From an uncultured Actinomycetes bacterium (GTDB taxonomy: Bacteria > Actinomycetota > Acidimicrobiia > Acidimicrobiales > Microtrichaceae), in NCBI GenBank assembly GCA_903852755.1, contig CAINRS010000139.1, forward strand, positions 1-64,000: a stretch of DNA of 64,000 nt, in the 5' to 3' direction. Shown here piece after piece: positions 2,631 to 34,303 of this stretch. The notes under the pieces were generated by a model. The model had not been told where the DNA came from. It made no database searches and saw only the letters and a program-made list of their open reading frames with translations. Positions within the stretch are counted from its first letter, which is position 1. Each line of letters opens with the position of its first letter. A program made the translations under genes and the position numbers.

Positions 2631-4985
2631 ATGCGCACCGGGGGACTCCGCAGGACGATCGTCGACGGCTGGCGGCAGGGGGCGCTCGTCGCCACGCTGG
2701 TGGTCGCGCTGCTCGCCGGGGCGTGCACCGACGACTCGGGGACCGAGTGGGCCGAGCCGCCGTCGACCGCCAACGCACCCTTCACCGCCTACGGCGGTAT
2801 CGGACAGGCGACCGTCGTCGCCGCCGAACCCGGGTCGGTCGTCACGCTCCTCGATGCCGATGGTGTCGAGGTCGCGAGCGGCACGACCGACGCGTACGGG
2901 TCGTTCATCTTCCGGGAGCTCACGCCGGGCGACGGCTACCGGGTGGTGGCGGCGGGCGGCGGTGAGGACCTGCGCACGGTCGAGTTCCGGGTGCTCGCCG
3001 AGTCCGACACGCCGCCGCAGGAGTTCTACGACTCCCAGACCTTGGTCGAGGGACTCAACTACCTCGAGATGCGCGACGGCGTGACGCTCGCCGCAACCGT
3101 CCGGCTGCCACCGGGCAAGGACATCGACGACGGGCCGTTCCCCACGGTGATCGAGTACTCGGGCTACGAGATCGCGGCACCCGGTGACCTGCTCGCGGCC
3201 TTCGGTGGCGGCGCCCCGGACCCCCTGGCGCCGAGCGGGGCCACGGCCGTGGGCTCGGTCGTCACACCGGTGCTCGGCTTCGCGACGGTGAGCCTGCAGA
3301 TCCGCGGCACCGGCTGCTCGGGAGGCGACTTCGACCTGTTCGGCCTGCCGACGGTCCACGACGGCTACGACGCCGTCGAGGCCGTCGCAGCGCAGCCGTG
3401 GGTCAAGGGCGGCAAGGTCGGGATGGTCGGCATCTCCTACTCGGGGATCAGTCAGCTGTTCGTGGCCGGCACCCGGCCGCCGAGCCTGGCGGCGATCGCC
3501 CCCATGTCGGTGCTGGCCGATCTGTACGACGGTGTCGGGTTCCCCGGTGGGATCTTCAACGACGGGTTCGCCAAGAGCTGGCTGACCGAACGGCAGCAGG
3601 ACGCGCGTCCGGCCGTGGAGGGCGGCCAGGACTGGGCGAAGGTCCTCATCGAGCAGGGGGACCGGACGTGTGAGCGGAACCAGCGGCTGCGCCTGCAGAC
3701 CCGGGACGTGCTGGATCTCGTGGACTCCGAGCCGTTCCGCAACCCGGTGCTCTACGACCGTCGGACCCCCCTGGACTGGGCCGAGCGGATCGACGTGCCG
3801 GTGTTCCTGGTCGGCGCCTTCCAGGACGACCAGCTCGGCGGTCACTGGGTGAACCTGGTGGAGGCGCTCGAGGGCAACCCCGACGTCTGGGTGACGATGT
3901 ACAACGGCAACCACAACGACGCGCTCGGCCCCGAGATCCTGCCGCGGTGGGTGGAGTTCCTCGACCTGTTCGTCGCCGACGAGGTGCCGGAGATCCCGGC
4001 CGACGTGCTGGCGCTCGCCGGAGGACTGTACGGGACCATCGGGTCGGCCGCCGCCCCGCCGTTGCAGCAGACACGGTTCGCCGGGACCACGGACCTCGCT
4101 GCGGCCAGGGCCACGTTCGAGGAGGACCCGAGGGTCCGTCTGCTCGTGGAGGTCGGTGCGGGACCGCTCGGGCCGCGGTCGTTGCAGTCGGTGGCCGAGC
4201 TCGACTTCGACGAGTGGCCACCGGCCGGGACCGAGGCCACGAGCTGGACGCTGTCTGCAGACGGTGCACTGGTCGACACCGGCGACGGTGCGGCCGGTGC
4301 CGGGGCCGAGGTGGTCGAGGGCACGGCGGAGTACGTGGCCGACCCGTCGGCCCGGCCCGAACGGAACGTCGACAGCGGGAGCGTGGCCTACTCCGCCGAC
4401 GAGCCCTACGACTGGCAGCCGGTCGCTGCCGGCAAGGGGCTCGGGTACGTCACCGGTCCGCTCGCCGAGGACCTGCTGGTCGACGGAGGCGGCAGCCTGG
4501 ACCTGCGGGTCGCGGCCTCGGCCGAGGACACCGACCTGCAGGTGACGCTCAGCGAGGTCCGTCCGGACGGGCGGGAGACCTACCTGGCCTCGGGCTGGCT
4601 GCGCGCGTCGCAGCGAGCGCTCGACGAGGAGCGGTCGACCGAGGTGTACCCGGTGCAGACGCACCGGCGCGAGGACCGTGCACCGCTCAGCCCGGGCGAG
4701 TTCGTGGACGTCCGCGTGCCGATCAACCCGGTCGTCGCGTGGGTCCGCGCCGGGTCGCGACTCCGGGTGACGGTGCTGGCACCGGGTGGTGACGTGCCGC
4801 TGTGGGAGTTCGACACCATCGAGGACGGCTCGACCACGGTGACGGTGCTCCACGGGTCCGACGTGCCCTCCCGGCTGGTGCTGCCGACGGTGCCGGCCAC
4901 GCCGGCGGTGACGCCGCTGCCGGCGTGCGACACCCTCCGCGGCCAGCCGTGCCGGGACTACGTTCCCGCGTCGAACGGCGGCTGA
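2631..4985 (+). CDS. CocE/NonD family (X-Pro dipeptidyl-peptidase S15-like) hydrolase, lipoprotein
   Basis: A 784-residue secreted serine hydrolase. The N-terminus has a basic start, a hydrophobic core and lipobox LLAGAC with Cys at residue 32, so it should be lipid-anchored outside the membrane. A short beta-rich carboxypeptidase-regulatory-like segment (about 45-125: VVTLLDADGVEV, AYGSF) precedes the alpha/beta hydrolase domain with nucleophile elbow GISYSG (Ser near residue 269). A C-terminal jelly-roll domain (about 545-770) contains the RVPINPVVAWVRAGSRLRV pattern typical of S15/CocE enzymes. The family cleaves esters or Xaa-Pro dipeptides; the substrate cannot be told here. The Gly-rich DUF-like insert 175-200 is unusual. 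Transcription is probably leaderless. Confidence 0.85.
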   Translation: MRTGGLRRTIVDGWRQGALVATLVVALLAGACTDDSGTEWAEPPSTANAPFTAYGGIGQATVVAAEPGSVVTLLDADGVEVASGTTDAYGSFIFRELTPGDGYRVVAAGGGEDLRTVEFRVLAESDTPPQEFYDSQTLVEGLNYLEMRDGVTLAATVRLPPGKDIDDGPFPTVIEYSGYEIAAPGDLLAAFGGGAPDPLAPSGATAVGSVVTPVLGFATVSLQIRGTGCSGGDFDLFGLPTVHDGYDAVEAVAAQPWVKGGKVGMVGISYSGISQLFVAGTRPPSLAAIAPMSVLADLYDGVGFPGGIFNDGFAKSWLTERQQDARPAVEGGQDWAKVLIEQGDRTCERNQRLRLQTRDVLDLVDSEPFRNPVLYDRRTPLDWAERIDVPVFLVGAFQDDQLGGHWVNLVEALEGNPDVWVTMYNGNHNDALGPEILPRWVEFLDLFVADEVPEIPADVLALAGGLYGTIGSAAAPPLQQTRFAGTTDLAAARATFEEDPRVRLLVEVGAGPLGPRSLQSVAELDFDEWPPAGTEATSWTLSADGALVDTGDGAAGAGAEVVEGTAEYVADPSARPERNVDSGSVAYSADEPYDWQPVAAGKGLGYVTGPLAEDLLVDGGGSLDLRVAASAEDTDLQVTLSEVRPDGRETYLASGWLRASQRALDEERSTEVYPVQTHRREDRAPLSPGEFVDVRVPINPVVAWVRAGSRLRVTVLAPGGDVPLWEFDTIEDGSTTVTVLHGSDVPSRLVLPTVPATPAVTPLPACDTLRGQPCRDYVPASNGG

Positions 4986-6700: not shown

Positions 6701-6725
6701 GCCGGCCGGGCATCTCGGCCCCGAG

Positions 6726-6770
6726 CCGCCAGTCCCCGGACAGCCAGCCCCCGAACAGCCAGCCCCCGAA
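6726..6770. repeat. 15-bp tandem repeat, two perfect copies and one imperfect
   Basis: The unit CAGCCAGCCCCCGAA is repeated exactly at 6741-6755 and 6756-6770, preceded by a diverged copy at 6726-6740. The array fills most of the gap between the CopC-CopD gene and the DUF305 gene and ends four bases before that gene's GAGGAG ribosome binding site. Confidence 0.75.
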
Positions 6771-6784
6771 CCGAGGAGACCACC

Positions 6785-21914: not shown

Positions 21915-22238
21915 ATGGAAACACCACTCTACGATGGGATTCAGATGAGGGCGATGGGGGCGGTGAGGTTGTACACCGGCGACGCGGACTTCCCGCACCG
22001 CGTCGTGGCGAGGGTCGGCGTGAAGGCGGTGCGGAACCGCAACATCCTGTTCAGCATGTGGACGTCGTCCGATTCCGTCGAGTCCGAGCTGGCCGAGACC
22101 CTCTGCGCGCGGGCCGCCGAGCTCGGCGCCGACGACGTCGTCGAGGTGACGTTCGCGAAGCGCCGGCAACTGCGGAAGGTGTCGTACAAGCTCAGCGGCG
22201 TGGCAGTGGCACGCTTGGAGCCGGTGCCGGACCACTGA
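21915..22238 (+). CDS. Conserved small protein of unknown function
   Basis: A protein of about 107 residues that I do not recognise with confidence. It has alternating beta and helix segments (AVRLYTGDADF, RVVARVGVKAV, ELAETLCARAAELGADDVVEVTF, KLSGVAVARL), loosely like the small alpha/beta fold of YbjQ- or DUF4156-type proteins, where a conserved A-x4-GA-DAV block marks the core. No signal peptide or membrane helix. GTG 21888, GTG 21912 and ATG 21915 are possible starts; the promoter and GGGGAGG fit 21915. Its last 47 bp overlap the 3 prime end of the convergent ECF S-component gene. Confidence 0.6.
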   Translation: METPLYDGIQMRAMGAVRLYTGDADFPHRVVARVGVKAVRNRNILFSMWTSSDSVESELAETLCARAAELGADDVVEVTFAKRRQLRKVSYKLSGVAVARLEPVPDH

Positions 22239-23028
22239 ACTCGACCGGCGCCCCGAACGACGCCCGTCGGATCGCCCGGCGCACGACACTGAGCACGGCG
22301 GGTCCGGCCAGCACGAGCAGCACGCTGGTGGTGATCGCCCGGCCCGTGTCCCAACCGAGCGACGTGGCGAGCACGTAGACGCCGAAGCGGTGCAGGTTGT
22401 CGACGACCGGTGCCCCGGCGAGGTAGGAGAGCTCCGAGCCCGAACCGATGGCGAACGGCCAGAACCACAGGTTCATGAGCAGGCCGTACCCGAACGAGGC
22501 GACCACGCCGTAGGCGACGAGCAGTCCCAGCTCCCGTCGACCCCGGGCGGGGGGCAGGAGTCCGGCGCCCAGACCGACCCAGCCGGCGGCGAGCATCTGG
22601 AACGGCAGCCACGGCCCCACGCCCCCGGTGACGACCGCAGAGGCGAACAGCGTCGTGGTCCCGAGCAGGAAGCCGAACCCGGGACCGACCGCCCGGCCCC
22701 CGACGACCAGCAGGAAGAAGACCGTCTCGATCCCGGCCGTCCCGGCGCCGAGCGGTCGCAGCGCTGCGCCGACGGCGGCGAGCACGGCGAGCACGGCGAG
22801 GGTGCGCGCGTCGATCCCACCGTCTGCGAACTCGGCGAGCACCACGGCGAGCAGCAGCGGCAGGACCGTGATGAACACCAGCGGTGCGTCTCCCACGTGC
22901 CCGGTCGCACCGGGGTCGACCCGCAGGAGCAGCGGCCAGGCGAACGCGGCGAGTCCCACGAACGACACCAGAGTCAGCGTCAGGGCGCTGCGACGGCCGA
23001 GCACCAGCGCGCCGGCGGTCCCGCTCAC
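22192..23028 (-). CDS. ECF transporter S component-like membrane protein
   Basis: A 278-residue membrane protein with about seven hydrophobic helices, last in a five-gene ECF operon. Position after the T and A genes, size, and the Gly-rich helices (VVGGRAVGPGFGFLLGTTTLFASAVVTGGVGPWLPFQ, seen as separate blocks GRAVGPGFGFLLG and GVGPWLPFQ) fit a substrate-binding S subunit. Longer than the usual 180-200-residue S proteins because of an extra N-terminal pair of helices. The substrate is not given by the sequence; the operon context suggests a corrinoid. The GTG start overlaps the ATPase stop as GTGA, and the 3 prime end overlaps the opposing small gene. Confidence 0.75.
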   Translation of the reverse strand: MSGTAGALVLGRRSALTLTLVSFVGLAAFAWPLLLRVDPGATGHVGDAPLVFITVLPLLLAVVLAEFADGGIDARTLAVLAVLAAVGAALRPLGAGTAGIETVFFLLVVGGRAVGPGFGFLLGTTTLFASAVVTGGVGPWLPFQMLAAGWVGLGAGLLPPARGRRELGLLVAYGVVASFGYGLLMNLWFWPFAIGSGSELSYLAGAPVVDNLHRFGVYVLATSLGWDTGRAITTSVLLVLAGPAVLSVVRRAIRRASFGAPVEFSGPAPAPSVPLPRR

Positions 23029-24668
23029 CCGTCGACCCCCGTCGCCCCGTCCGCCACTCCGGCCCGCAGGGCGGCGTCGATCAGGTCGTCCACGTCGACC
23101 CAGTGCGACGGCGCCATGATCCGGGCGACCTGGGGGGCGAACGTCGGCGACGGACACAACAGCTCGGCGGTGGCACCGTGGGCGACCACCTCGCCCTGGG
23201 ACAACAGGACGGTGCGGTCGCACGTCGTGGCGGCGAACTCGACGTCGTGGGTGGCGACCAACACGGTCGCTCCTGCGCCGGCACGGCGACGCAGCGCGGC
23301 GCCGAGCGCCCGCTTGGCGTCGTAGTCGAGTCCGCGGGTCGGCTCGTCGAGCAGGACGACGCCCGGTGACGCGGTCAACTGGATGGCGAGCACCAGGGCG
23401 AGTCGCTGGCCCTCGGACAGGTCACGGGGGTGGAGCCCCCCGTCGACGCGGCCGGATGCCGACCCGGACATCAGGTCGTCGAGGACGCCCCGGCAGGTGC
23501 CGGGCGTCGCCGCCGACTCGGCGTCGGCCTGGGCGCACTCGTCGTCGACGGTCTCGAGGTAGAGCAGGTCGCCGGGTGTCTGGGGGACGAGCGCGACCAC
23601 GGCGCGCCGGGCCGACGGGTCGAGGTCCCCGGTGTCCTGCCCGTGGACGTCGGTCGTTCCGGCGTCCCGGGTCCCGCTGCCCTGCACCGCCCACAGCAGG
23701 GAGCTCTTGCCCGAGCCGTTCCGGCCGATCAGCGCCGTGGTGGTGCCTCCGCCGAGGTCGAGGTCGACGCCGTCGACGGCGAGGACCGAGCCGTGGCGGA
23801 CGGTCAGCCCCCGGACGGCGACGGCGGTCGACGCCGGGGCGTCCCGTGGCCCGGGCGGCCGCAGACCGGCGGCCCGGAGCGGAGCGGCGTGCCGGCGGGC
23901 GTCGCGCACCGAGCGGGGCAGCGGATGCCAGCCGCAGCGACGACCGAGCTCGACCACCGGCGGCACGACGGGGCTGTCGGCCACGAGCTCGCTCGGATCG
24001 CCGGCACGCACGGAGGTGCCCTCGACCACGACGAGCTGGTCCGCGAACTGCAGCGCCCGCTCGAGTCGGTGCTCGGCGAGCACGACGGTGATCCCGAGGT
24101 CGTGCACGAGACGCGACAGCGCGGCCAGCACCTCCTCGGCGCCGGTCGGATCCAGGGAGGACGTCGGTTCGTCGAGCACGAGCACACGCGGCCGGGTCGT
24201 CAGCGCCGCTCCGATGGCGACGCGCTGTTGCTGTCCGCCCGAGAGGTCGCGCAGCGGCCGGTCCCGGAGGTCGGCGAGGCCGAGCAGGTCGAGGATCTCC
24301 TCGACGCGCACGCGCATGACGGTGGGTGGCAGGGCGAGCTGTTCCGGTCCGAAGGCGAGCTCCGCCTCGACCGTGTCGGTCACGAAGCCGGCGAGCGGAT
24401 CCTGACCGACCCACCCGACGGTGCCCGCCAGGTCGCGTGGCGCCACGTGCGCCGTGTCGAGGCCGGCGACGGTCACCCGGCCGGCGAGGTGTCCGCCCGT
24501 GGCCCTGGGGACCAGGCCGACGACGGCCTGCAGCAACGTCGACTTGCCCGACCCCGTCCGGCCGGTCACGAGGCACGTCGTCCCCTCGTCGACCACCAGG
24601 TCGACCGCAGCGAGCGTGGGCTCCGATGCGTCCGGGTAGGTGACCGTCACCCGGTCGAACCTGATCAC
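23025..24668 (-). CDS. ECF transporter ATPase, two ATP-binding domains fused
   Basis: About 547 residues with two complete ABC ATPase domains. Domain 1: Walker A TGRTGSGKST, signature LSGGQQQR, Walker B VLVLDEPTSSLDP and switch His in AEHR. Domain 2 (from about residue 290): Walker A IGRNGSGKSS, signature LSEGQRLA, Walker B VVLLDEPTRGLD and THD. This is the fused EcfA-EcfA' form common in Actinomycetota. It powers substrate import together with the T and S subunits. The frame opens to GTG 24701, but GTG 24668 gives the same 4-bp GTGA overlap seen at every other junction of this operon and begins right at the first beta strand (IRFDRVTVTYP). Confidence 0.92.
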   Translation of the reverse strand: MIRFDRVTVTYPDASEPTLAAVDLVVDEGTTCLVTGRTGSGKSTLLQAVVGLVPRATGGHLAGRVTVAGLDTAHVAPRDLAGTVGWVGQDPLAGFVTDTVEAELAFGPEQLALPPTVMRVRVEEILDLLGLADLRDRPLRDLSGGQQQRVAIGAALTTRPRVLVLDEPTSSLDPTGAEEVLAALSRLVHDLGITVVLAEHRLERALQFADQLVVVEGTSVRAGDPSELVADSPVVPPVVELGRRCGWHPLPRSVRDARRHAAPLRAAGLRPPGPRDAPASTAVAVRGLTVRHGSVLAVDGVDLDLGGGTTTALIGRNGSGKSSLLWAVQGSGTRDAGTTDVHGQDTGDLDPSARRAVVALVPQTPGDLLYLETVDDECAQADAESAATPGTCRGVLDDLMSGSASGRVDGGLHPRDLSEGQRLALVLAIQLTASPGVVLLDEPTRGLDYDAKRALGAALRRRAGAGATVLVATHDVEFAATTCDRTVLLSQGEVVAHGATAELLCPSPTFAPQVARIMAPSHWVDVDDLIDAALRAGVADGATGVDG

Positions 24669-25864
24669 CGCGCCGCTGCCTGCGTCCCGGACTGCGACCA
24701 CCGGTCACCCGGCGTGTCGGTCGGCGACGGACGGAGCTCGAGGAGTGGATCCGGACGCGGTTGCGGGGACCGGGTCCGGGTGTCGGACCGGGCTCGGGCG
24801 CCGTGACGGGCCGGGGTGGCGACCGCTGCCGGCGCCAGTGCGACCAGCACCGAGAGGGCGGCGACGAGCGGCAGGCTCGGCCAGCCGAGCGGGTCGGGGC
24901 TCGGCACGACCATGTCCGGGTCGAGACGCGACGCCACCACGGTCCCGACGCCCGCGGCCACCCCCGACGCGCCGACCGCCCAGGCCCGGCCGTCCCAGCG
25001 GTCGGGGCGGTGGGCGGTGGGACGGACCCGGCCGCGGGCCGAGAGGAGCCCGGCGGCCGCCAGCGCGGTCCCGGCGAGGAGGAGGGGGAGTCCGAGCGCT
25101 GGTGGCGTGGTCCCGTCCAGCGAACCGTACGTCCCGACGACGACCCCGAACAGGCCGCCGATGACGAGCGCTCCGGTGATCCGACGGACCTTCGGGTCGA
25201 CGTCGCCGGTGCGCCCGTAACCGCGCACGTCCATCGACGCCGCCAGGGCGAGGGACCGGTCGAGCGCGTCGGCGAGCACGGGGACGGCGACGGCCCGCAC
25301 GGCGCGGCGTCCCGTGGTCCGACCGGCGCGCAGCGTGCGGGCGCGTCGGACGCGGGCGACGCTCTCGACCAGCTGCGGGGCGATGGTCAGGGTGACCACC
25401 ACGGCGGTCCCGATCTCGTACAGCGAGGTGGGCACGCACCGCAGCAACCGTCTGGAGTCGGCGAGCGAGTTGGCCGCACCGAGGCAGACGATCACCGTGG
25501 CCAGGCGCAGCCCGTCGGTCGCTGCGGCGACCAACCCCTCGAGCGTCACCTGTCCGCCCAGGCGGACCCCGGCCGCCCAGTCGCCGAGCCGCACCTCGGG
25601 CAGGGTGACGAGGACGGTCGACCCGCTCCTGCTCCCGAGCAGCACGTCGGCGACCACCCGGACCGCCACCACGGCCAGCCCGAGCCAGAGGTACGAGCGG
25701 AACGCCCGGGCCCAGGGGGCGTCGGTCCGGCACGACGCGACCACGGTGGCGGCCACGGTGACGATCAGTCCCAGCAGCAGGGGGTTCGTGGTGCGGGACG
25801 CAGCCACGGCCAGCCCGGCGGCCCAGACCCACCACGCAGCAGGGTGGACCGGTCGTCCGATCAC
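24665..25864 (-). CDS. ECF transporter transmembrane (T) subunit, CbiQ/EcfT family
   Basis: A 399-residue membrane protein. The N-terminal 260 residues form the CbiQ/EcfT domain, with hydrophobic helices and the two cytoplasmic coupling signatures: VRRARTLRAG near residue 185 and MDVRGYGRTG near 235, equivalent to the ATPase-contacting motifs of EcfT. About 130 residues follow: two or three more helices and a Pro/Arg-rich cytoplasmic tail that is not usual in stand-alone EcfT. It joins the ATPase and the S component. The GTG start overlaps the preceding gene by GTGA. Confidence 0.88.
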   Translation of the reverse strand: MIGRPVHPAAWWVWAAGLAVAASRTTNPLLLGLIVTVAATVVASCRTDAPWARAFRSYLWLGLAVVAVRVVADVLLGSRSGSTVLVTLPEVRLGDWAAGVRLGGQVTLEGLVAAATDGLRLATVIVCLGAANSLADSRRLLRCVPTSLYEIGTAVVVTLTIAPQLVESVARVRRARTLRAGRTTGRRAVRAVAVPVLADALDRSLALAASMDVRGYGRTGDVDPKVRRITGALVIGGLFGVVVGTYGSLDGTTPPALGLPLLLAGTALAAAGLLSARGRVRPTAHRPDRWDGRAWAVGASGVAAGVGTVVASRLDPDMVVPSPDPLGWPSLPLVAALSVLVALAPAAVATPARHGARARSDTRTRSPQPRPDPLLELRPSPTDTPGDRWSQSGTQAAAR

Positions 25865-26853
25865 GACCCCTCCGGTCCGGCGCGTCGCCGCCGGACCGTG
25901 ACCACGGCGGCCGTGGCCACCGCGGCCACCACGCCGAGCCCGAGCAGGGTCGCCGCGGGCGAGCCCGCAACACCCGGATCGTCCCCGGGGCCCGGAGCCG
26001 TCGCCTGCTCGTCGACGGGCGCACGGGTGTCGGTCCCGCTCGGGCCGTCGGCCCCGGCACCGGCTCCGGCACCGGCTCCGGCCCCGGCTCCGGCTCCGGC
26101 ACCGGCTCCGGCTCCGGCTCCGGTGTCGTCCGTCGTCGCCCCGCCGTCCGGACCGGTCCCGGCCACCGGTGTCGACTCCGGCCCGGTCGGTGGCGCTGCG
26201 AGCGGCGCACCGGGCGCACCACTCCCCGGGACCGGTCCACCGGTGGGGGAGGGAACGAGACCGGTGGTGGGCGGTGTCGGAGCGCCGGGTGCGGGCAGGG
26301 TCGTGACGCCGGCCACCGCGACGGGCGCCGGCGGCGGTGCCGTGACGGGTGCCGGCGGTGTGGTGACGGGAGGAGCGGGTGCCGGGGGGGCGAGTGCCGG
26401 ACTGCGACCGCTGCCGTCGGAGAACACCCAGCCCTCGACCGTCCCGACGGGCGGGATCCGATCGGCCGCTCCCGTGTCGCTGTAGGTCCAGCCGCCGCCC
26501 CGGGAGGCGTGCCAGTACGACCAGTAGGCGTCTGCGGCCGCAGTGTCGAGACAGGGGTCCGCTGCCGGCGCACCGTCGATCCGGCACACGAACCCGGGGA
26601 ACCGGGCCGTGCCGCGCACCTCGAAGCCGGCGGCTCGGAGCGCGGCGAGCCCGGAGGCCGGTGACCCGGGGGCGCACCCCACCCGCACGCCGCCGCCGAG
26701 CATCGTTGCGTCGACCACGACGGTCACGCCGTCGGCCCCGGCGCACGGCCCCGGTGTCGCCCCCGGGGTCGCCCCTGCGGACGCGTGCGGAGTGACCACC
26801 GCCAGTCCGATGGTCCCGGCGGTGAGCAGCGCCACGATCCACCGGCGCCTCAC
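25861..26853 (-). CDS. Cell-surface protein with DUF4430/transcobalamin beta-domain-like fold, membrane-anchored
   Basis: A 330-residue exported protein. Signal peptide at 1-28, a globular domain at about 35-135, Pro-rich linker (140-240), an Ala-Gly run encoded by a hexamer repeat (about 245-267), then a transmembrane helix near 300-320 and a basic tail. The globular part follows the DUF4430 order: a first strand VTVVVD, a helix SGLAALRAAGF, GFVCRIDG, then YWSYWHAS and a terminal GTVEGWVF strand. DUF4430 is the family that includes the C-terminal domain of intrinsic factor and transcobalamin. Two Cys pairs (PCAGAD/RVGCA and VCRIDG/DPCLD) could form disulphides. Cotranscribed with an alpha/alpha-barrel partner and an ECF importer. 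Ligand is inferred, not shown. Confidence 0.72.
   Translation of the reverse strand: MRRRWIVALLTAGTIGLAVVTPHASAGATPGATPGPCAGADGVTVVVDATMLGGGVRVGCAPGSPASGLAALRAAGFEVRGTARFPGFVCRIDGAPAADPCLDTAAADAYWSYWHASRGGGWTYSDTGAADRIPPVGTVEGWVFSDGSGRSPALAPPAPAPPVTTPPAPVTAPPPAPVAVAGVTTLPAPGAPTPPTTGLVPSPTGGPVPGSGAPGAPLAAPPTGPESTPVAGTGPDGGATTDDTGAGAGAGAGAGAGAGAGAGAGAGADGPSGTDTRAPVDEQATAPGPGDDPGVAGSPAATLLGLGVVAAVATAAVVTVRRRRAGPEGS
26054..26119 (-). repeat. Hexamer repeat encoding an Ala-Gly linker
   Basis: Eleven consecutive copies of CCGGCN (as written on the plus strand) encode alternating Gly and Ala residues in the stalk of the DUF4430-like surface protein. Such repeats change length easily and would vary the distance of the domain from the membrane. 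Confidence 0.85.
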
Positions 26854-28373
26854 CGCCCGCGCTCCCCTCGGCCCGTCCGTACCCGGGTGAGTCCGGTCGT
26901 GGCGAGGCCGCCGACGAGCAGTCCGAGACCGACGAGGACAGGTGCGATCGGGGTGCCGCCGGTGACGGCGAGCCGGGTGCCCGAGCCGGCCACGACCCCG
27001 GAACCAGCCGGCGTCCGCGTGACGGAGACACCGAGCACGGCCGCCGTCGTCGGGACGCTGCTGGCGGGAGCGGTGCTCGAGGTGTCGGTGCTGATCGGGA
27101 CGGTGCTCTTCGGGACGGTGCTGGCCGGAATCGCGGTGTTCGGGACGGTGCTGCTCGGAACGGTGCCGGTCGGGCTCGTGGTGGTGGGGGAGGTGGGGAC
27201 GGTGCTCGTCGTCGGGGTCGTGTCGCACGGTGCCCCGGTCCCGGGCGCTGCGGCGCCGGCCGATCCGATGGGGACGGTCGTGAACGCCAGCAGCGCCTGG
27301 GAGGTGCTGCGACGGAACTGGTCACGTGCGGTCGCCGGGATACCGGTGGCGGCCGCGGCCTGGGCTGCAGCGGTGAACGCCACGGCGCCGACGTCGGTCG
27401 CCCCGGCACCGCAACCGAGCTGCCGTGCGACGATCCACGCCCGGGCACGCGCCGCCGCCTCGGTGCGGCCGCCGATGGTGAACGCAGCAGCGGCGAGTCC
27501 CGTCGAGTTGGCGTTCGCCACGGCTCCGGGACCGGAGCTCGCCAGTGACCCGTCGGCCTGTTGTGCCCGCTCCAGCCAGTCGAGCGCCCGCGTGGTCGTC
27601 GAATCCGGGGAGCCGTTCGCCTCCAGGAGCGCGAGCACCGACAGCGCCGTGGTGTCGGCATCGGCCGAGACGTCGCTCGTGCAGCCCCGGCCGCCGGTCA
27701 GGAAGAGCCGGAACCCTCCCGCGGGACACTGCTGGGCGATCAGGAAGGAGACGGCGCTCCCCGGCGTGGAGCCGGACCGGGCGAGCGCCAGCACGCCGAG
27801 CGCCTGGGTGAAGGAGTTCGATCGATCCGCCAGTGTCGGTGCCGCCGCAGGTGGGAGGTCGCGCAACCGGCCGTCGTCGGTCGCCCCCGGCGCGTCGACC
27901 CGGCGTCCGAGCAGCAGGTCGACGAGGTCCTCACCCCCGAGGTCGCCGGGGTCACCGCCGCGGGCGACGGCGAGGAGCACGAGCTTGGCCGTTCCTCCAG
28001 CGAGGACCTGCCCGGGCCCACCGGGTCGCACCGAGGTGTCCGGTCGGTCGAACAGTCGCTGCGCCAGCCGGCCCGCTGCGGTGGGGTGACGGCCCGTGGC
28101 GGTCAGGGCCAGCGCCGCGTCGGCGGCGAGTCCCGGATCGGGCGCGCCGCCGGTCGTGATGGTGTCGTCGCTGATCTCGCCGACGAGCCAGCGGGCCGCC
28201 CGGTCGGCCGGGCCGGGCGGTGGCAGCGGCTCCGCAGCGGCGAGGGGTGTCACGAACGGACCGGCCGGGATCACCGACCCGGCCAGGAGTGAGGCGGAGG
28301 CGGCCAGGACGACGGCCACAGCGGTGGCGAGCGGGCGCCGCCGGGGCGCGCCGGGTGAGCCTGCGGCCAGCAC
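26850..28373 (-). CDS. Surface alpha/alpha-barrel protein (prenyltransferase/transcobalamin alpha-domain-like) with LAxTG sorting signal
   Basis: About 507 residues. Signal region with hydrophobic core ATAVAVVLAASASLLAG, then about 330 residues of helical repeats (LAADAALALTATG, NSFTQALGVLALARSG, DTTALSVLALLEANG, NSTGLAAAAFTIGG) of the kind shared by terpene cyclases and the alpha domain of intrinsic factor. Cyclase active-site DxDD is not evident. A Thr/Ser/Pro stalk (about 385-450) carries near-repeats of STVP. The end has LAVTG (bases 26958-26972), a hydrophobic stretch and an Arg-rich tail, fitting class E sortase anchoring. First gene of the ECF operon. GTG 28373 is preferred over TTG 28409, which coincides with a -35-like TTGACC. 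Confidence 0.72.
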   Translation of the reverse strand: MLAAGSPGAPRRRPLATAVAVVLAASASLLAGSVIPAGPFVTPLAAAEPLPPPGPADRAARWLVGEISDDTITTGGAPDPGLAADAALALTATGRHPTAAGRLAQRLFDRPDTSVRPGGPGQVLAGGTAKLVLLAVARGGDPGDLGGEDLVDLLLGRRVDAPGATDDGRLRDLPPAAAPTLADRSNSFTQALGVLALARSGSTPGSAVSFLIAQQCPAGGFRLFLTGGRGCTSDVSADADTTALSVLALLEANGSPDSTTTRALDWLERAQQADGSLASSGPGAVANANSTGLAAAAFTIGGRTEAAARARAWIVARQLGCGAGATDVGAVAFTAAAQAAAATGIPATARDQFRRSTSQALLAFTTVPIGSAGAAAPGTGAPCDTTPTTSTVPTSPTTTSPTGTVPSSTVPNTAIPASTVPKSTVPISTDTSSTAPASSVPTTAAVLGVSVTRTPAGSGVVAGSGTRLAVTGGTPIAPVLVGLGLLVGGLATTGLTRVRTGRGERGR

Positions 28374-28379
28374 CCGACC

Positions 28380-28409
28380 ATCCCACCGGGTGCCGGGCGG
28401 CCGGGTCAA
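28380..28409 (-). promoter_or_regulatory. Putative promoter of the ECF/surface-protein operon
   Basis: On the minus strand: TTGACC (28409-28404), an 18-base spacer and TGGGAT (28385-28380), which ends six bases before GTG 28373. The -35 is good; the -10 lacks the usual A at position 2, so the promoter may need help or be weak. Confidence 0.4.
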
Positions 28410-28430
28410 CGCCGACGTGCGGTGGTCATT

Positions 28431-28490
28431 GGGTGCGACAGGTCCGGGTGCGACGGGTCCGGGTGCGACGGGTCCGGGTGCGACAGGTCC
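28431..28490. repeat. Four perfect 15-bp direct repeats between divergent promoters (candidate operator)
   Basis: GGGTGCGACRGGTCC occurs four times end to end at 28431, 28446, 28461 and 28476; only the R position varies (A, G, G, A). The array fills most of the space between the B12-domain regulator and the ECF operon, ending four bases from the regulator's expected -35 position and 22 bases from the operon's -35. B12-binding CarH regulators bind several direct repeats as a tetramer, so this could be the operator. Similar-sized arrays elsewhere warn that it may instead be a chance minisatellite. Confidence 0.6.
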
Positions 28491-28516
28491 GTGGGGTCGC
28501 CTCCGGGGCCCACGGC

Positions 28517-28522
28517 TACCAT
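28517..28522 (+). promoter_or_regulatory. -10 box for a leaderless mRNA (TACCAT)
   Basis: TACCAT ends six bases before GTG 28529 of the regulator gene. The -35 position (about 28494-28499) has no TTGACA-like sequence and touches the end of the direct-repeat array, as expected if a bound protein controls initiation. Confidence 0.6.
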
Positions 28523-28528
28523 CGAGAC

Positions 28529-29368
28529 GTGGCGATGAACCTCAAGCAGGTGGCGCAGCGCCTCGGGGTCCACTACACGACCGCGTACCGCTGGGTCCGG
28601 ACCCACCAGCTCGAGGCCGACCGCACCTCGACCGGCTGGGAGGTCACCGAGGCACAGCTCCGCCGGTTCGAGGCGTCCCGGCGTCCCGACGGCCCGGTGC
28701 GGCGCTCCCGGGTGGCGTGGTCCGACCGGCTCCGCCCCGCCCTGGAGCGTGGTGACGAGGTGGCAGCGTGGCGGGTGCTCGAGGATGCGCTCCGCTCCGG
28801 CATGGAGCCGGAGGCGTGCTACCTCGACGTCCTGGTGGAGGCGCTCCGCTCGCTGCCGGCCGAGGGGGACCACGTCGACGGGTACCTGGCGGCTGCAGTG
28901 GCCGACCGGATCGTGGCCCGTCTCGGTGCCCGGCTGCGCCGTCCGGGGCGGACGCGGGGGACCGTCGTCGTCGCGGCGCCCCTGGGGGAACGTCACTCCC
29001 TGTCGACCTCGATCCTCGCCGACCTGATCCGGCTCCGCGGGGTGGCCTGTACCGAGCTCGGTGTCGACGTGCCGCCCGAGGTCGTCGTCGCCGCCGCCCG
29101 TTCGGCCCGCAACCTGCGACTCGTGGCGCTCGCCGTGAGCGGCGCCGACCACCTCGGCTCGGTGGCCCTGACCACCGCACGGCTCCGCGCCGAGCTCCCC
29201 GACGTCGTGGTGCTCGTCGGCGGCCCGGGTGTCCTCAACGACGACGTCGCCGGCATGGTCGGTGCCGACCGCTGGGCCTCGGACCTGCGCGAGGCGGTCG
29301 CCGTGGTCGACTCGGTCGTCGATGCGCCCCGACCACGCCGACGTGCGGCGCACGACGCCCGTGGCTGA
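28529..29368 (+). CDS. HTH regulator with C-terminal B12-binding domain
   Basis: A 279-residue protein in three parts. Residues 3-55 form an excisionase/MerR-like HTH (LKQVAQRLGVHYTTAYRWVR, then a wing ending TGWEVTEAQL). Residues 65-140 are helical, in the place of the four-helix cap of CarH. Residues 144-262 form a Rossmann domain with GERHSLS (153-159) matching the D/ExHxxG cobalamin loop, His 156 being the expected cobalt ligand, then AVSG and VVLVGG in the positions that contact the cobalamin tail. The CarH cap signature W-x9-EH is missing. It is divergent from the ECF operon and heads its own operon. A cobalamin-responsive repressor is the natural reading; not proven. Confidence 0.8.
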   Translation: MAMNLKQVAQRLGVHYTTAYRWVRTHQLEADRTSTGWEVTEAQLRRFEASRRPDGPVRRSRVAWSDRLRPALERGDEVAAWRVLEDALRSGMEPEACYLDVLVEALRSLPAEGDHVDGYLAAAVADRIVARLGARLRRPGRTRGTVVVAAPLGERHSLSTSILADLIRLRGVACTELGVDVPPEVVVAAARSARNLRLVALAVSGADHLGSVALTTARLRAELPDVVVLVGGPGVLNDDVAGMVGADRWASDLREAVAVVDSVVDAPRPRRRAAHDARG

Positions 29369-30347
29369 CGTCGATCCCGTCGACCCGCAGTTCCAGTTCC
29401 TCGTCGAGGTGATGGCGGGGATGACGATCGACGACGACTCGCTCGCCGACCAGCGGGCGGCGTTCGAGGCGCTCTCGGTCTCGCTGCCGCCGCCTGAGAT
29501 CCCCGGGCTCCTCGTCGAGGACCGGCGGGTCCCGGGTGCCGTCGGTGCTCCCGAGGTCGGCGTCCGCCTGTACCGGATGGAGGATCCGGATCGGTCTGCG
29601 GGGGTCGGGTCGCCGACACCCGGTCTGCTCCTGATCCACGGCGGGGGGATGGTCCTCGGCGGACCGAACGCGTGCGACCTGCTCGCACGGCACCTCGTGT
29701 CCCACCTGCGGTGGCCGGTGGTGTCGGTCGACTACCGGCTCGCTCCCGAGGTGCCCTACCCGGGCCCGCTCGACGACTGCGCCGCAGCGCTCGAGTGGTT
29801 CGTCGGGGCGGCGGAGGACCTCGGTGTGGACCCGCAGCGGATCGGCGTGGTGGGCGAGAGCGCCGGCGGCGGTCTGGCTGCGGGGCTGGCACTCCGCTGC
29901 CGCGACAGCGGTGGGCCGCGCGTCGCCTGCTCGGTGCTGATCTACCCGATGCTCGACGACCGGACCGTGCTGCGACCCGATCCCCGGCCCCACGTCGGCG
30001 GCGACGTGTGGACGCCCGAGTTGAACCGCTACGCGTGGGGCGCCTACCTGAGAGCCGACCCGGGTTCGGACGGCGTGTCCGAGCAGGCTGCGCCCGCCCG
30101 GGCGGTCGAGCTGTCCGGACTGCCGCCGACGGTGGTCACGGTGGGTGCGCTCGACCTCTTCCTCGACGAGGACGTCGAGTACGCACGCAGGCTCGCACTG
30201 GCGGGGGTGCCCGTCGAGCTCCACGTGTTCCCCCGGACGCCGCACGGTTTCGCCGGGCTCGTCGACGTGGCTCCCCTCGCCGGTGAGCACGCACTGGTGT
30301 TGATCGAGGCCCTCCGGAGGGAACTCGGGGGCACGTCGGTAGCGTGA
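29361..30347 (+). CDS. Alpha/beta hydrolase, hormone-sensitive lipase family
   Basis: A 328-residue esterase. Oxyanion motif HGGGM (near residue 93), nucleophile elbow GESAGG (near 171), an acid in VGALDLFLDE and the final catalytic His in PRTPHGF are present, so the triad is complete. HSL-family enzymes hydrolyse short to medium acyl esters. The start overlaps the regulator's stop by 8 bp (GTG 29361; an earlier GTG at 29343 is possible), indicating translational coupling. Its place between a B12-domain regulator and a FIST sensor is unusual and gives no clear substrate. Confidence 0.87.
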   Translation: MADVDPVDPQFQFLVEVMAGMTIDDDSLADQRAAFEALSVSLPPPEIPGLLVEDRRVPGAVGAPEVGVRLYRMEDPDRSAGVGSPTPGLLLIHGGGMVLGGPNACDLLARHLVSHLRWPVVSVDYRLAPEVPYPGPLDDCAAALEWFVGAAEDLGVDPQRIGVVGESAGGGLAAGLALRCRDSGGPRVACSVLIYPMLDDRTVLRPDPRPHVGGDVWTPELNRYAWGAYLRADPGSDGVSEQAAPARAVELSGLPPTVVTVGALDLFLDEDVEYARRLALAGVPVELHVFPRTPHGFAGLVDVAPLAGEHALVLIEALRRELGGTSVA

Positions 30348-31558
30348 ACGTGGCCGACGGTGGAACGACGGAGGTGGTGGACGTGGCTGACGGTGCGGAC
30401 GGTGGACGGTGGGTCGGTGCCGGAGGGTCGACGACCCCGGACGTCACCGCTGCGGTCGACGAGGCCCTGGCCTCCGCCCTGCAGGGGCGGGCGCCGTCGC
30501 TGGTGGTCGCCTTCGTCTCGCCCGTCTACCCGCTCGACCGCGTGGCCGAGGTGCTCGCCGACCGGCTCGGCGAGGTCCCGGTGCTCGGCTGTTCGACCGC
30601 CGGTGAGGTCGCCACGTCCGGGGTGAGCGACTCGGGAATGGTCCTGTGGGCCATCGGCGGTGCCGGCTTCGACGTCGCCGTGGGCTTCGGCGAGGGCGAC
30701 GAGGAGGGGCTCCGTGCCGCAGCCGCCGAGGCCGCCGGCTGCGCCCTCACCGTCGAGCAGCAGGCCAGTCAGGTGCTGGTACTGCTCGCCGACGGGCTCT
30801 GCGGGAACCAGGTCGAGGTGGTCCGCGGTGCCTACTCGGTGGTCGGCGCCGCCGTTCCGCTCGTGGGTGGTAGCGCAGGTGACGACCTGGCGATGGAGCG
30901 GACGCAGGTCCTGTCGGGCACGGTCGCGACCTCCGAGGCGGTGGTGGCCGCGGCGATCAGCTCGCCGGCTCCGATCGGGATCGGTGTGGCCCACGGCTGG
31001 CGGGAGGTGGGCGACCCGATGCTCGTGACGGCGAGCGACGAGGTGATCGTCGAGACCCTCGACGACCGGCCGGCGCTCGACGTGTACCTCGACGCATTCG
31101 GCGCGCCGGACGAGGTGCGCGCCGACGAGACGCAGTTCGTCGAGTTCGCGGTCACCCGACCGCTCGGACTCGTCCGCAGGGGGCGGACCGAGGTCCGCTA
31201 CGTGGCCGGAGCCGACTACGGGCGCCGGACGCTGCGCTGCATCGCCGAGGTGCCCCAGGGGGCGGCGGTCCACCTGCTCGAGGGAGACGAGGCGACGGTG
31301 CTCGACGCCACCGACGCGGCGTGCGCGGCTGCGGTCGACGGGCTCGAGGGCCGGCCGCCCATCGGCGTGCTCGCGTTCGACTGCGTCGCCCGACGGTCCG
31401 TGCTCGCCGAGGGCGGCGTGCAGGTCGAACTCGACCGCATCTCGGCGGCGACCGGCGGGGTGCCGGTGGCCGGTTTCTACACCTACGGCGAGATCGCCCG
31501 GACGAGCGGCTCCGGGGGGTTCCACAACCAGACGCTGGTGGTCGTCGCCTTCGCATGA
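30344..31558 (+). CDS. FIST domain sensor protein
   Basis: A 404-residue protein with FIST_N (about 45-235) and FIST_C (about 240-385) domains. Typical blocks are VPVLGCSTAGEV near residue 83, VPLVGGSAGDD near 175, and GVPVAGFYTYGEIAR near the end, where the last is the hallmark of FIST_C. FIST proteins are thought to bind small ligands such as amino acids and pass signals to partner output domains. Here the partner is encoded in the next gene, whose ATG overlaps the FIST stop (ATGA). No membrane helices, so a cytoplasmic sensor. GTG 30344 overlaps the previous stop; GTG 30350 is an alternative. Confidence 0.9.
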   Translation: MNVADGGTTEVVDVADGADGGRWVGAGGSTTPDVTAAVDEALASALQGRAPSLVVAFVSPVYPLDRVAEVLADRLGEVPVLGCSTAGEVATSGVSDSGMVLWAIGGAGFDVAVGFGEGDEEGLRAAAAEAAGCALTVEQQASQVLVLLADGLCGNQVEVVRGAYSVVGAAVPLVGGSAGDDLAMERTQVLSGTVATSEAVVAAAISSPAPIGIGVAHGWREVGDPMLVTASDEVIVETLDDRPALDVYLDAFGAPDEVRADETQFVEFAVTRPLGLVRRGRTEVRYVAGADYGRRTLRCIAEVPQGAAVHLLEGDEATVLDATDAACAAAVDGLEGRPPIGVLAFDCVARRSVLAEGGVQVELDRISAATGGVPVAGFYTYGEIARTSGSGGFHNQTLVVVAFA

Positions 31559-33372
31559 GTGGACCCGATCCCGAGCGGCACCCGGCCTGGGCGCTCCACG
31601 TCCTGACCGAGGTGCTCTCGTCGCTCTCGGCCGCCGACGGACGATCGGTGGAGCGGGCCGCCGAGCGGGTCGCCGAGTCGCTCGACGCCGAGGTGGTGCT
31701 CGCGCTGCGGGACGGTCAGGTCGTGGCCTCCGCAGGCCTCACCGCCGACGACCGTGCGGCGCTCGTGGACTCGGCCGTCGAACAGCCGAGTTCGCTGGAG
31801 TTCCCGATCGGACCGACGGGTTCCGGCCGGATCGACCTGTGCTGGTCACCGCTCGAGGGCGACGACGTGCTCGTCGTCGGGCGGTTCGGTGGCTCCTTCG
31901 ACCTCGAGGAGCGGTCGCTGCTGCGCTCGATCGGACGGGCGCTGGCGCTCAACCTCCGGGTGCTCGACGCGCTCGACGCCGAGCGCTCTGCCCGGCGGGA
32001 ACTCGACGACGCGCTCGACGTCGTCACCCACCGGGCGACCCACGACCCGCTGACCGGTCTGCCGGGCCGCGAGCTCCTCCTCGAGCGGCTCGACCGGAGA
32101 CTGCTCGAGGCGGAGCCGGCGCGGCGGCACCAGGTGTTCGTGCTGTTCATCGACGTGGACCGCTTCAAGCAGGTCAACGACGTGCACGGTCACGCCGTCG
32201 GCGACCTGTACCTGCGGGCGATCGCCGTCCGCCTGAACGACTTCGCTGCGCCGGACGAGATCTGCGCCCGACTGGCGGGGGACGAGTTCGTGCTGATGAC
32301 CGTGCGACCGTCGCTCGAGGCGGCCCGGCAGGTCGCCGACTCGTTGCTCGCCGAGCTGGTCGCTCCCGTCGACCTGGACGGCCACGTCCTCGTGCCGTCG
32401 GTGTCGGTCGGGCTCGCCCAGGGAACCCCGGGGTACCGGGCCGAGGCGCTGATCGACGACGCCGACCTGGCGATGTACCGGGCCAAGCAGGAGGGTCGGG
32501 GCCGGGTCGTCGTGTTCGACCCGGCGCTGCGCCTCGAGACCGAGCGTCGGGCCCAGGTCGAGGCCGACCTCCGTCACGCCGTCCGTTCGGTCGGAGGCTT
32601 GGTCCCGTACTACCAACCGGTGGTCAACATGGTCACCGGGGGTGTGGTCGGTTTCGAGGCGCTCGTGCGCTGGGTCCACCCGGAGCGGGGACTCGTCCCG
32701 CCGGACGAGTTCGTGCCGGTCGCCGAGGAGACGGGCCTCATCGTCGAGATCGACTCCCGCATGCTCCGGGCGGCGTGCGCACAGGTCGCCGAGTGGCGGC
32801 GACGCCCGGGATGGGAGCACCTCACGGTGTCGGTCAACTCCTCCGCACGTTCCTTCGCCGACCCCGGTCTCCCCGCCAGGGTGGCCGAGGCGCTCGAGCT
32901 GTCCGGACTGCCGCCGTCGGCGCTGCTGCTCGAACTGACCGAGACCGTGCTCATGGACGAGTCCCGGTCGGGCGAGCAGATGCGAGAGCTCGTCGACCTG
33001 GGGATCCGACTGGCGGTGGACGACTTCGGCACCGGGTTCTCGTCGCTGCGGTACCTGCGGGAGTTCCCCGTCGCCGTGCTGAAGGTCGACCGGTCGTTCG
33101 TGGACGCCCTCGAGGGGACGGGTGACGTGATCGTGCGGACGGTGGTCGGTCTGGCCGAGTCGCTCGGCCTCGCCGTCACCGCCGAGGGAGTGGAGACCGA
33201 GCAGCAGCGGGAGCGACTGGTCGAGCTCGGCTGCGGGTACGCACAGGGGTACCTGTTCGGCCGACCCGCCGACGCCGACGCTGCGACGTCCGCGCTCCTC
33301 GGCTCGGTCGAGGTCTCCTCGCCGGGGGCCGACCGCGACGGATCGGTCGGCGCTCCCTCCAGCAGTCGGTAG
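31555..33372 (+). CDS. GGDEF-EAL c-di-GMP protein
   Basis: A 605-residue cytoplasmic protein. An N-terminal GAF-like segment (about 5-145) is followed by a GGDEF domain (about 155-325) whose signature reads AGDEF, a variant found in some active cyclases. The EAL domain (about 345-590) keeps EALVRW, VNSS, LTETVLMD, DDFGTGFSSL, LKVDRSFV and AEGVET, so the phosphodiesterase catalytic set looks complete. It probably makes or degrades c-di-GMP according to the FIST partner and its own N-terminal domain. Last gene of a four-gene overlapping set that begins with the B12-domain regulator. Confidence 0.9.
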   Translation: MSGPDPERHPAWALHVLTEVLSSLSAADGRSVERAAERVAESLDAEVVLALRDGQVVASAGLTADDRAALVDSAVEQPSSLEFPIGPTGSGRIDLCWSPLEGDDVLVVGRFGGSFDLEERSLLRSIGRALALNLRVLDALDAERSARRELDDALDVVTHRATHDPLTGLPGRELLLERLDRRLLEAEPARRHQVFVLFIDVDRFKQVNDVHGHAVGDLYLRAIAVRLNDFAAPDEICARLAGDEFVLMTVRPSLEAARQVADSLLAELVAPVDLDGHVLVPSVSVGLAQGTPGYRAEALIDDADLAMYRAKQEGRGRVVVFDPALRLETERRAQVEADLRHAVRSVGGLVPYYQPVVNMVTGGVVGFEALVRWVHPERGLVPPDEFVPVAEETGLIVEIDSRMLRAACAQVAEWRRRPGWEHLTVSVNSSARSFADPGLPARVAEALELSGLPPSALLLELTETVLMDESRSGEQMRELVDLGIRLAVDDFGTGFSSLRYLREFPVAVLKVDRSFVDALEGTGDVIVRTVVGLAESLGLAVTAEGVETEQQRERLVELGCGYAQGYLFGRPADADAATSALLGSVEVSSPGADRDGSVGAPSSSR

Positions 33373-33408: not shown

Positions 33409-34230
33409 GTGGCAGGAGTGCAGGTGCGGATGGTCGTGAGCGACGTCGACGGCACGCTGCTCGACGCCGACCGTCGGCTCCGGCCAGCGACACTCGGGGT
33501 CGCTGCGGCACTGCACGACGCGGGCATCCTCCTGGCACTCGTGAGCAGTCGTCCGCCCAGGGGCATGGCCATGTTCGTCGACCCGCTCGGCCTGACCGCC
33601 CCGCTCACCGGGTTCAACGGGGCGGCGACGGTCACCCCGACCATGCGGCCGCTCTGCGAGACCCCGATCCCCGCACCGGTCGCCGCGACGGTGCTCGACG
33701 CCCTGGTCGACACGCCGGTCTCCCTGTGGGCGTTCGAGGGTTCCCGCTGGTTCGTGTCGGACCCCGACGGTCCGCGGGTGCTGCACCACGCCGCCGACGT
33801 GGGCTACGAACCCGAGGTGGTCGACGACGTCACGGCTGCAGTCGCCGACCGCTCGGTGACGAAGCTCGTCGCAGTGAGCGACGACCACGACGCGGTGGCG
33901 ACGGCCGAGCGCCGGGTGCGCTCGGCGTGCGGTGGCTCGGTGTCGGCCACCCGCAGTCAGGCGTGCTACCTCGACGTGACGGATGCGGCGGCCGACAAGG
34001 GCGCCGCCGTGCGGTGGCTGTGCGGTGAGCTCGACGTGCCGGCCGAGGCAGTCCTCGCGATCGGTGACGGGGCCAACGACGAGGCCATGTTCCGGGTGGC
34101 GGGCACGGGTGTCGCCATGGGGAACGCCCATTCCGACGTCCGGGCGGTGGCCGACGTGGTCACCGGTGCCAACTCCGACGACGGTTGGGCCGATGCCGTC
34201 GATCGCCTCGTGCTCACCGGCCTGACCTGA
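33409..34230 (+). CDS. HAD-IIB (Cof-type) phosphatase
   Basis: A 273-residue HAD hydrolase. Motif I SDVDGTLLD is near residue 11, motif II Ser in LVSSRP near 46, the Lys in ADKGAAV near 202, and motif III/IV IGDGANDEAMF near 222-232. A cap of the C2B type lies between. Cof-type enzymes dephosphorylate sugar phosphates, flavin precursors or similar compounds. It precedes the sugar phosphate operon with only the repeat array between, so a sugar phosphate substrate is plausible. Starts at GTG 33409, 33418 and 33424 and ATG 33430 are all possible; the first is given. Confidence 0.88.
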   Translation: MAGVQVRMVVSDVDGTLLDADRRLRPATLGVAAALHDAGILLALVSSRPPRGMAMFVDPLGLTAPLTGFNGAATVTPTMRPLCETPIPAPVAATVLDALVDTPVSLWAFEGSRWFVSDPDGPRVLHHAADVGYEPEVVDDVTAAVADRSVTKLVAVSDDHDAVATAERRVRSACGGSVSATRSQACYLDVTDAAADKGAAVRWLCGELDVPAEAVLAIGDGANDEAMFRVAGTGVAMGNAHSDVRAVADVVTGANSDDGWADAVDRLVLTGLT

Positions 34231-34303
34231 TCCGACCAGCACCGATCCGACCAGCACCGATCCGACCAGCACCGATCCGACCAGCACCGATCCGACCAGC
34301 ACT
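34229..34303. repeat. Five 15-bp tandem repeats upstream of tal
   Basis: GATCCGACCAGCACC is repeated five times from 34229 (units start at 34229, 34244, 34259, 34274 and 34289); only the last base of the final unit differs. The array begins inside the HAD gene's stop codon and ends two bases before AGGAGG, the ribosome binding site of tal at 34305-34310. It therefore forms nearly the whole spacer between the two genes. Confidence 0.9.

Follow-up and report, generated by a model that had tools for sequence, protein, structure and literature searches.

A candidate corrinoid ECF importer with a putative split transcobalamin-like surface capture module in Actinomycetota

To our knowledge, vitamin B12 capture is poorly understood in bacteria that lack an outer membrane, and the S components of ECF importers are generally assumed to be the direct binders of their vitamin, with no capture protein outside the cell. 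A locus from an uncultured member of the Acidimicrobiia (genome 3.16 Mb, 96.5% complete) raises the question of whether two exported proteins encoded beside an ECF core could act as such a capture device for corrinoids. Within the window, by which we mean the whole stretch of 64,000 nucleotides that was analysed, the minus strand carries five genes in the order toroid-beta-T-A-S, where toroid and beta denote the two exported proteins. All five are present as open reading frames, and a GTGA stop/start overlap is found at every junction, so that the genes read as a single transcription unit. The initial annotation of this DNA had proposed one operon at 22192-28373, and the overlaps, together with the recurrence of the same gene order in other species, bear this out for the genes, although 28373 is one of several possible starts and the longest reading frame begins at 28409.

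Genome searches with the toroid family and with the S component as queries brought up relatives, those of S being encoded in at least 587 stretches of other genomes. The operon occurs in Streptomyces, Knoellia, Janibacter, Amycolatopsis, Lentzea, Nocardioides, the Acidimicrobiia and further Actinomycetota, amounting to hundreds of genomes in which it has so far been labelled by locus tags only. The five genes did co-occur as had been supposed: for 50 well-covered loci of other species, each containing T, A and S with 3 kb or more of sequence ahead of T, all five were found in 39 and the exact order toroid-beta-T-A-S in 37, with 11 loci carrying beta-T-A-S without a nearby toroid gene. The toroids of Streptomyces (SCO2321 family; L118, L132, L149 and other loci) were circularly permuted relative to those of the window, the Acidimicrobiia and Knoellia, as expected when helical hairpins form a closed ring. 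In eight Streptomyces genomes the toroids scored above the cut-off of SCO2321_fam, and there too the order was toroid-beta-T-A-S.

The importer core was recognised by Pfam and NCBIfam as it had been annotated. The T component (24665-25864, 399 aa) belongs to the EcfT/CbiQ family (PF02361 CbiQ; 41 bits, cut-off 25, E 2.1e-10), and the A component (23025-24668, 547 aa) carries two ATPase domains on one chain, with PF00005 (ABC ATPase) and TIGR04520 (ECF ATPase, 246 bits) each matching in two stretches. The S component (22192-23028, 278 aa), in the alignment of which we noted the conserved motif GG[VI]GPW[LM]PFQM, matched PF12822 ECF_trnsprt (31.9 bits, cut-off 30.7, E 1.6e-7). Encoding of S, T and A together is the mark of a dedicated (group I) ECF transporter. 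The general family PF12822, to which we take the S component CbrT to belong as well, was the sole family matched by S, and neither BioY (biotin) nor ThiT (thiamine) was hit; the FolT family came in below threshold, a relative giving the best E at 0.0024, and a profile of S recovered no S chain up to E 10 among PDB chains, that of CbrT included.

The beta protein (25861-26853, 330 aa) is exported and consists of a domain at approximately residues 38-150, a low-complexity linker and a C-terminal transmembrane helix. A predicted structure of the domain, built on 34 aligned homologues, had a mean pLDDT of 91 and a pTM of 0.86, and the first eleven Foldseek matches of the model were all transcobalamin, the best with an E of 0.009 and a probability of approximately 1. 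With VIA-align, the beta domains of transcobalamin, haptocorrin and intrinsic factor were matched at Z 9.6-10.2, a range that also took in a Ruminococcus gnavus structure (3u7z), and the best unrelated fold reached Z 5.4; the top matches of the small domain were thus the B12 carriers rather than unrelated folds. Sequence searches gave a different picture. The beta protein scored 25 bits against SCO2322_fam (NF040672; cut-off 85), the Pfam DUF4430 model did not match it, PF14478 matched one of the 34 homologues at E 0.17, a profile of the domain found nothing relevant among PDB sequences, and a Pfam search with PF01122 and PF14478 matched none of the exported proteins of the window. The DUF4430 pattern read in the initial annotation was therefore upheld by fold but not by Pfam sequence search, and the likeness of a predicted fold does not by itself establish the function of the domain.

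The toroid protein (26850-28409, 519 aa) comprises a signal region, the toroid at approximately residues 60-385, a Ser/Thr/Pro linker and an anchor region with an LAVTG sorting-like motif at residue 480, a transmembrane helix and a basic tail. It scored 87 bits against NF053823 (SCO2321_fam), below the threshold of 300, and matched Prenyltrans (PF00432) weakly; PF01122, the model of eukaryotic cobalamin-binding proteins, matched 3 of 20 toroid relatives (best E 0.0092), and the toroid alignment used as a profile against PDB sequences found squalene-hopene cyclases at E 8e-32. We modelled the fold on the homologue L087, a natural beta-toroid fusion of 501 residues (pLDDT 87, pTM 0.77), in which the toroid part follows a linker and has twelve helices. 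Its closest folds were class II terpene cyclases (Z 24), with some resemblance to GH76, and transcobalamin was absent among the 50 matches listed in these toroid-dominated searches. The model of this homologue confirmed a predicted alpha6/alpha6 barrel, in line with the alpha/alpha barrel claimed for the exported protein; terpene cyclases were closest in both fold and sequence, and likeness to the transcobalamin alpha domain is only compatible with these results.

We also considered whether the beta protein and the ECF core might form a B12 importer on their own, with the toroid being an exported enzyme of terpene-cyclase fold or an accessory protein (a wall anchor, or a binder of glycans or of a partner) that never contacts the corrinoid. 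The cyclase likeness, the 11 loci without a nearby toroid gene and the crystal structure of the human transcobalamin beta domain alone with cyanocobalamin (5np4) would all suit such a role, which we nevertheless consider unlikely. In most species the toroid gene belongs to the operon, and where it stands apart from it (L032, L082) it is still under riboswitch control; the protein is exported, and by our own reading of the sequence the DxDD motif of the cyclases is DADT in the window protein. Two relatives moreover join toroid and beta domain in a single protein, as a beta-toroid chain continuing into SLH-like repeats (L087:1-2053) and a beta-toroid chain with an LAYTG anchor (L090:2234-4261). 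These clean fusions place beta first, the reverse of the order in transcobalamin, and a third chain reads toroid-TM-beta (L086:2785-5217).

Both proteins bear signs of attachment to the cell surface. Most toroids examined had a transmembrane-like C-terminal stretch, as did 82 of 89 beta proteins at their end, and LAxTG was found in 13 of 78 toroids and LPxTG in 5, against a background of 8 LAxTG motifs in 3584 open reading frames. Because the window toroid carries LAVTG and its genome encodes two sortases, this protein may be attached to the wall, and the beta protein may be attached to the membrane.

The association with corrinoids came from the regulation of the relatives, in which riboswitches adjoined the operon already in the first set examined. 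We scanned 40 genomes reached via the S search in full with the cobalamin riboswitch model RF00174, mapping positions by coordinate, verifying them by sequence and dropping candidates on other contigs. In 35 of the 40 genomes, against 0.008 expected by chance, the coding strand carried a riboswitch no more than 420 nt before the first conserved toroid or beta residue; these genomes are not independent, many being related, but the linkage covers several orders. Where a genome had exactly one riboswitch, it was linked to the operon in 16 of 17 cases. Riboswitches also preceded toroid or beta genes that lie apart from T-A-S (L032, L043, L045, L082 and L037). L082 has two, one ahead of beta-T-A-S and another ahead of the displaced toroid gene; L032 has one that serves a toroid gene distant from the importer; and in L037 (3899-4663, plus strand) a riboswitch at 3899-4039 stands directly ahead of a second, free-standing beta-like gene (169 aa, 4154-4663) that is convergent with the operon. 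Since displaced toroid and beta genes have riboswitches of their own, both exported proteins belong independently to the corrinoid regulon. This linkage is corrinoid-responsive control, which importers of cobalt or of corrinoid precursors share.

The gene content of the genomes bears on the same question. We found no CbiC and no CobS in the 96.5% complete window genome, which does carry genes of the methylmalonyl-CoA mutase family, and judged by these genes the source organism seems unable to make vitamin B12. As FecCD (BtuC-type) gave a marginal match only, and given the missing CbiC and CobS and the mutase genes, the operon may be the only corrinoid importer of this genome. Among 148 genomes of the order, CbiC was present in 2 of 24 with S and in 47 of 124 without it (Fisher p 0.004, uncorrected for relatedness). 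The corrinoid ligand, which had been put forward by inference, is strongly supported by the riboswitches of the relatives, the toroid/beta fusions and the missing markers of corrin biosynthesis.

Could the substrate be an incomplete corrinoid, such as cobinamide or cobyrinate diamide, to which the surface proteins would then bind? Salvage, and not uptake alone, comes under cobalamin riboswitches, cobyrinate diamide/B12 is the annotated substrate of the named ECF system CbrUVT, and the operon is carried by Streptomyces, which generally produce B12. In the window genome, however, a precursor could not be finished without CobS, and the animal relatives of the beta domain have complete cobalamin as their ligand, so we regard this substrate as quite improbable. 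Import of cobalt or another metal, suggested by a T component in PF02361, a family that includes the cobalt protein CbiQ, and by the B12 riboswitches under which cobalt uptake also stands, is very improbable: the operon has no CbiM or CbiN, its S component is PF12822, B12-controlled cobalt import would be pointless in a genome without corrin synthesis, and an exported B12-carrier fold speaks against a metal. Least probable of all is a vitamin other than a corrinoid, with exported partners sharing the carrier fold by coincidence, for although a shared fold proves no function and FolT gave its sub-threshold match, the riboswitch linkage and the correlation with auxotrophy speak against it.

In the window itself, no cobalamin riboswitch reached the gathering score, nor did one appear with the E limit relaxed to 5, and none was found in the whole window genome, the sister species or the closest relatives (L080 and L081). 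Divergent from the operon, across an intergenic region common to both (28410-28537), lies a regulator gene (28538-29368, plus strand) with a MerR-like HTH (PF12728, just below its cut-off), a four-helix B12-binding_2 domain (PF02607) and a B12-binding domain (PF02310). The protein matched corrinoid proteins and CarH in the PDB, and it combines a MerR-type HTH with both B12-binding domains as CarH does, but it fell far below the CarH cut-off (NF052513; 30 bits against 400). In its helical bundle it reads GYLA where the CarH-type alignment has EHAA, leaving no upper-ligand His, and with EH replaced by GY the photochemistry of CarH is not predicted; EEH is kept in one relative. The sister species has the same divergent pair, on a contig (C206) whose start falls within the toroid gene. 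In the genus of the window the riboswitch would have been lost and the divergent B12-binding HTH regulator has probably replaced it, with the operon as its presumed target.

A 15-bp tandem array at 28431-28491 in the intergenic region was considered as the operator of this regulator and rejected, as the sister species lacks the array and the window has further arrays of 15-bp units at 34229-34302 and 6719-6771. All three arrays lie at or near gene borders, and their unit sequences differ from one another. HTH/B12-binding regulators that are convergent with S and lie 1-2 kb downstream of it were also seen in G053:C19, G095:C1 and G127:C1, three genomes from a different family, as well as in L140 and L153, both of which keep the riboswitch despite the nearby regulator; in L140 and L187, S and the regulator are separated by a gene for a D-2-hydroxyacid dehydrogenase. 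A paralog of the regulator (42% identical) was matched at approximately 24900-25739 of G000:C73, the match reading through two TGA codons; this may represent either a broken copy or an alignment that overruns its end. In the downstream direction, beyond the regulator and a gene for Abhydrolase_3, the window encodes a FIST-domain sensor (NosP-like; 30344-31558) followed by a GGDEF/EAL-type protein (31321-33372).

Based on these sequence comparisons, we consider it very likely that the operon encodes a dedicated corrinoid importer, most likely for complete cobamide/B12, with two-chain surface capture. The toroid and beta proteins would be exported and held at the surface by transmembrane helices, that of the toroid accompanied by a sortase-E-like LAVTG motif. 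We infer that the two chains assemble into the alpha-barrel/beta-domain clamp seen within the single chain of transcobalamin or intrinsic factor, and that the pair would hold the corrinoid and pass it to the membrane-embedded S component, with T and the double ATPase A energising uptake; in most relatives B12 would repress the operon through the cobalamin riboswitch. A more specific picture, about which we are evenly divided, is that of a split transcobalamin, in which the separately anchored halves would close over the corrinoid at the cell surface, the toroid presenting it from the wall and the beta protein, anchored in the membrane, delivering it directly to S, and in which the fused cousins are perhaps related to the origin of the animal carriers. 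If dedicated corrinoid import with two-chain capture is correct, the Actinomycetota gain a surface B12-capture module, two orphan protein families gain a function, and transcobalamin and intrinsic factor gain a bacterial counterpart that is possibly their evolutionary source.

Among known systems, transcobalamin, intrinsic factor and haptocorrin share the beta fold (Z approximately 10) and an alpha6/alpha6 barrel partner, joined in one chain in some relatives of the operon. The animal carriers are single chains, alpha then beta, that feed an endocytic receptor, whereas the window encodes two separate anchored chains that would feed a transporter; the window toroid is moreover nearer to terpene cyclases than to transcobalamin, and there is no sequence match above Pfam cut-offs. 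In Streptomyces the same operon holds SCO2321_fam and SCO2322_fam, families that carry no function, and the window proteins fall below both cut-offs and differ in the permutation of the toroid. A literature search, with subscription papers and preprints outside its scope, returned nothing relevant on SCO2321-2325 and no paper tying SCO2321/2322 proteins to bacterial B12 uptake; DUF4430 was named in six papers, none of which, at the level of titles and abstracts, ties it to B12 in bacteria. BtuFCD and BtuM also take up B12, but their architecture is unrelated, the former working with a soluble binding protein and a classical ABC permease and the latter as a lone membrane protein (PMC6072759). 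ECF-type import of B12 is described for ECF-CbrT of Lactobacillus delbrueckii (PMC5997447), and CbrUVT is a predicted corrinoid ECF system annotated for cobyrinate diamide/B12 (PMC8123684, PMC6593275). With these the window operon shares ECF-based B12 import as predicted here and a B12-linked gene context, in its case the riboswitches of its relatives rather than of its own genome. It differs in that it has dedicated T, A and S components sharing an operon with two exported proteins, and exported capture proteins go unmentioned in the consulted parts of the three papers. ECF import of B12 is thus known in itself, and what appears to be new is an ECF corrinoid importer equipped with an exported, split, transcobalamin-like capture module.
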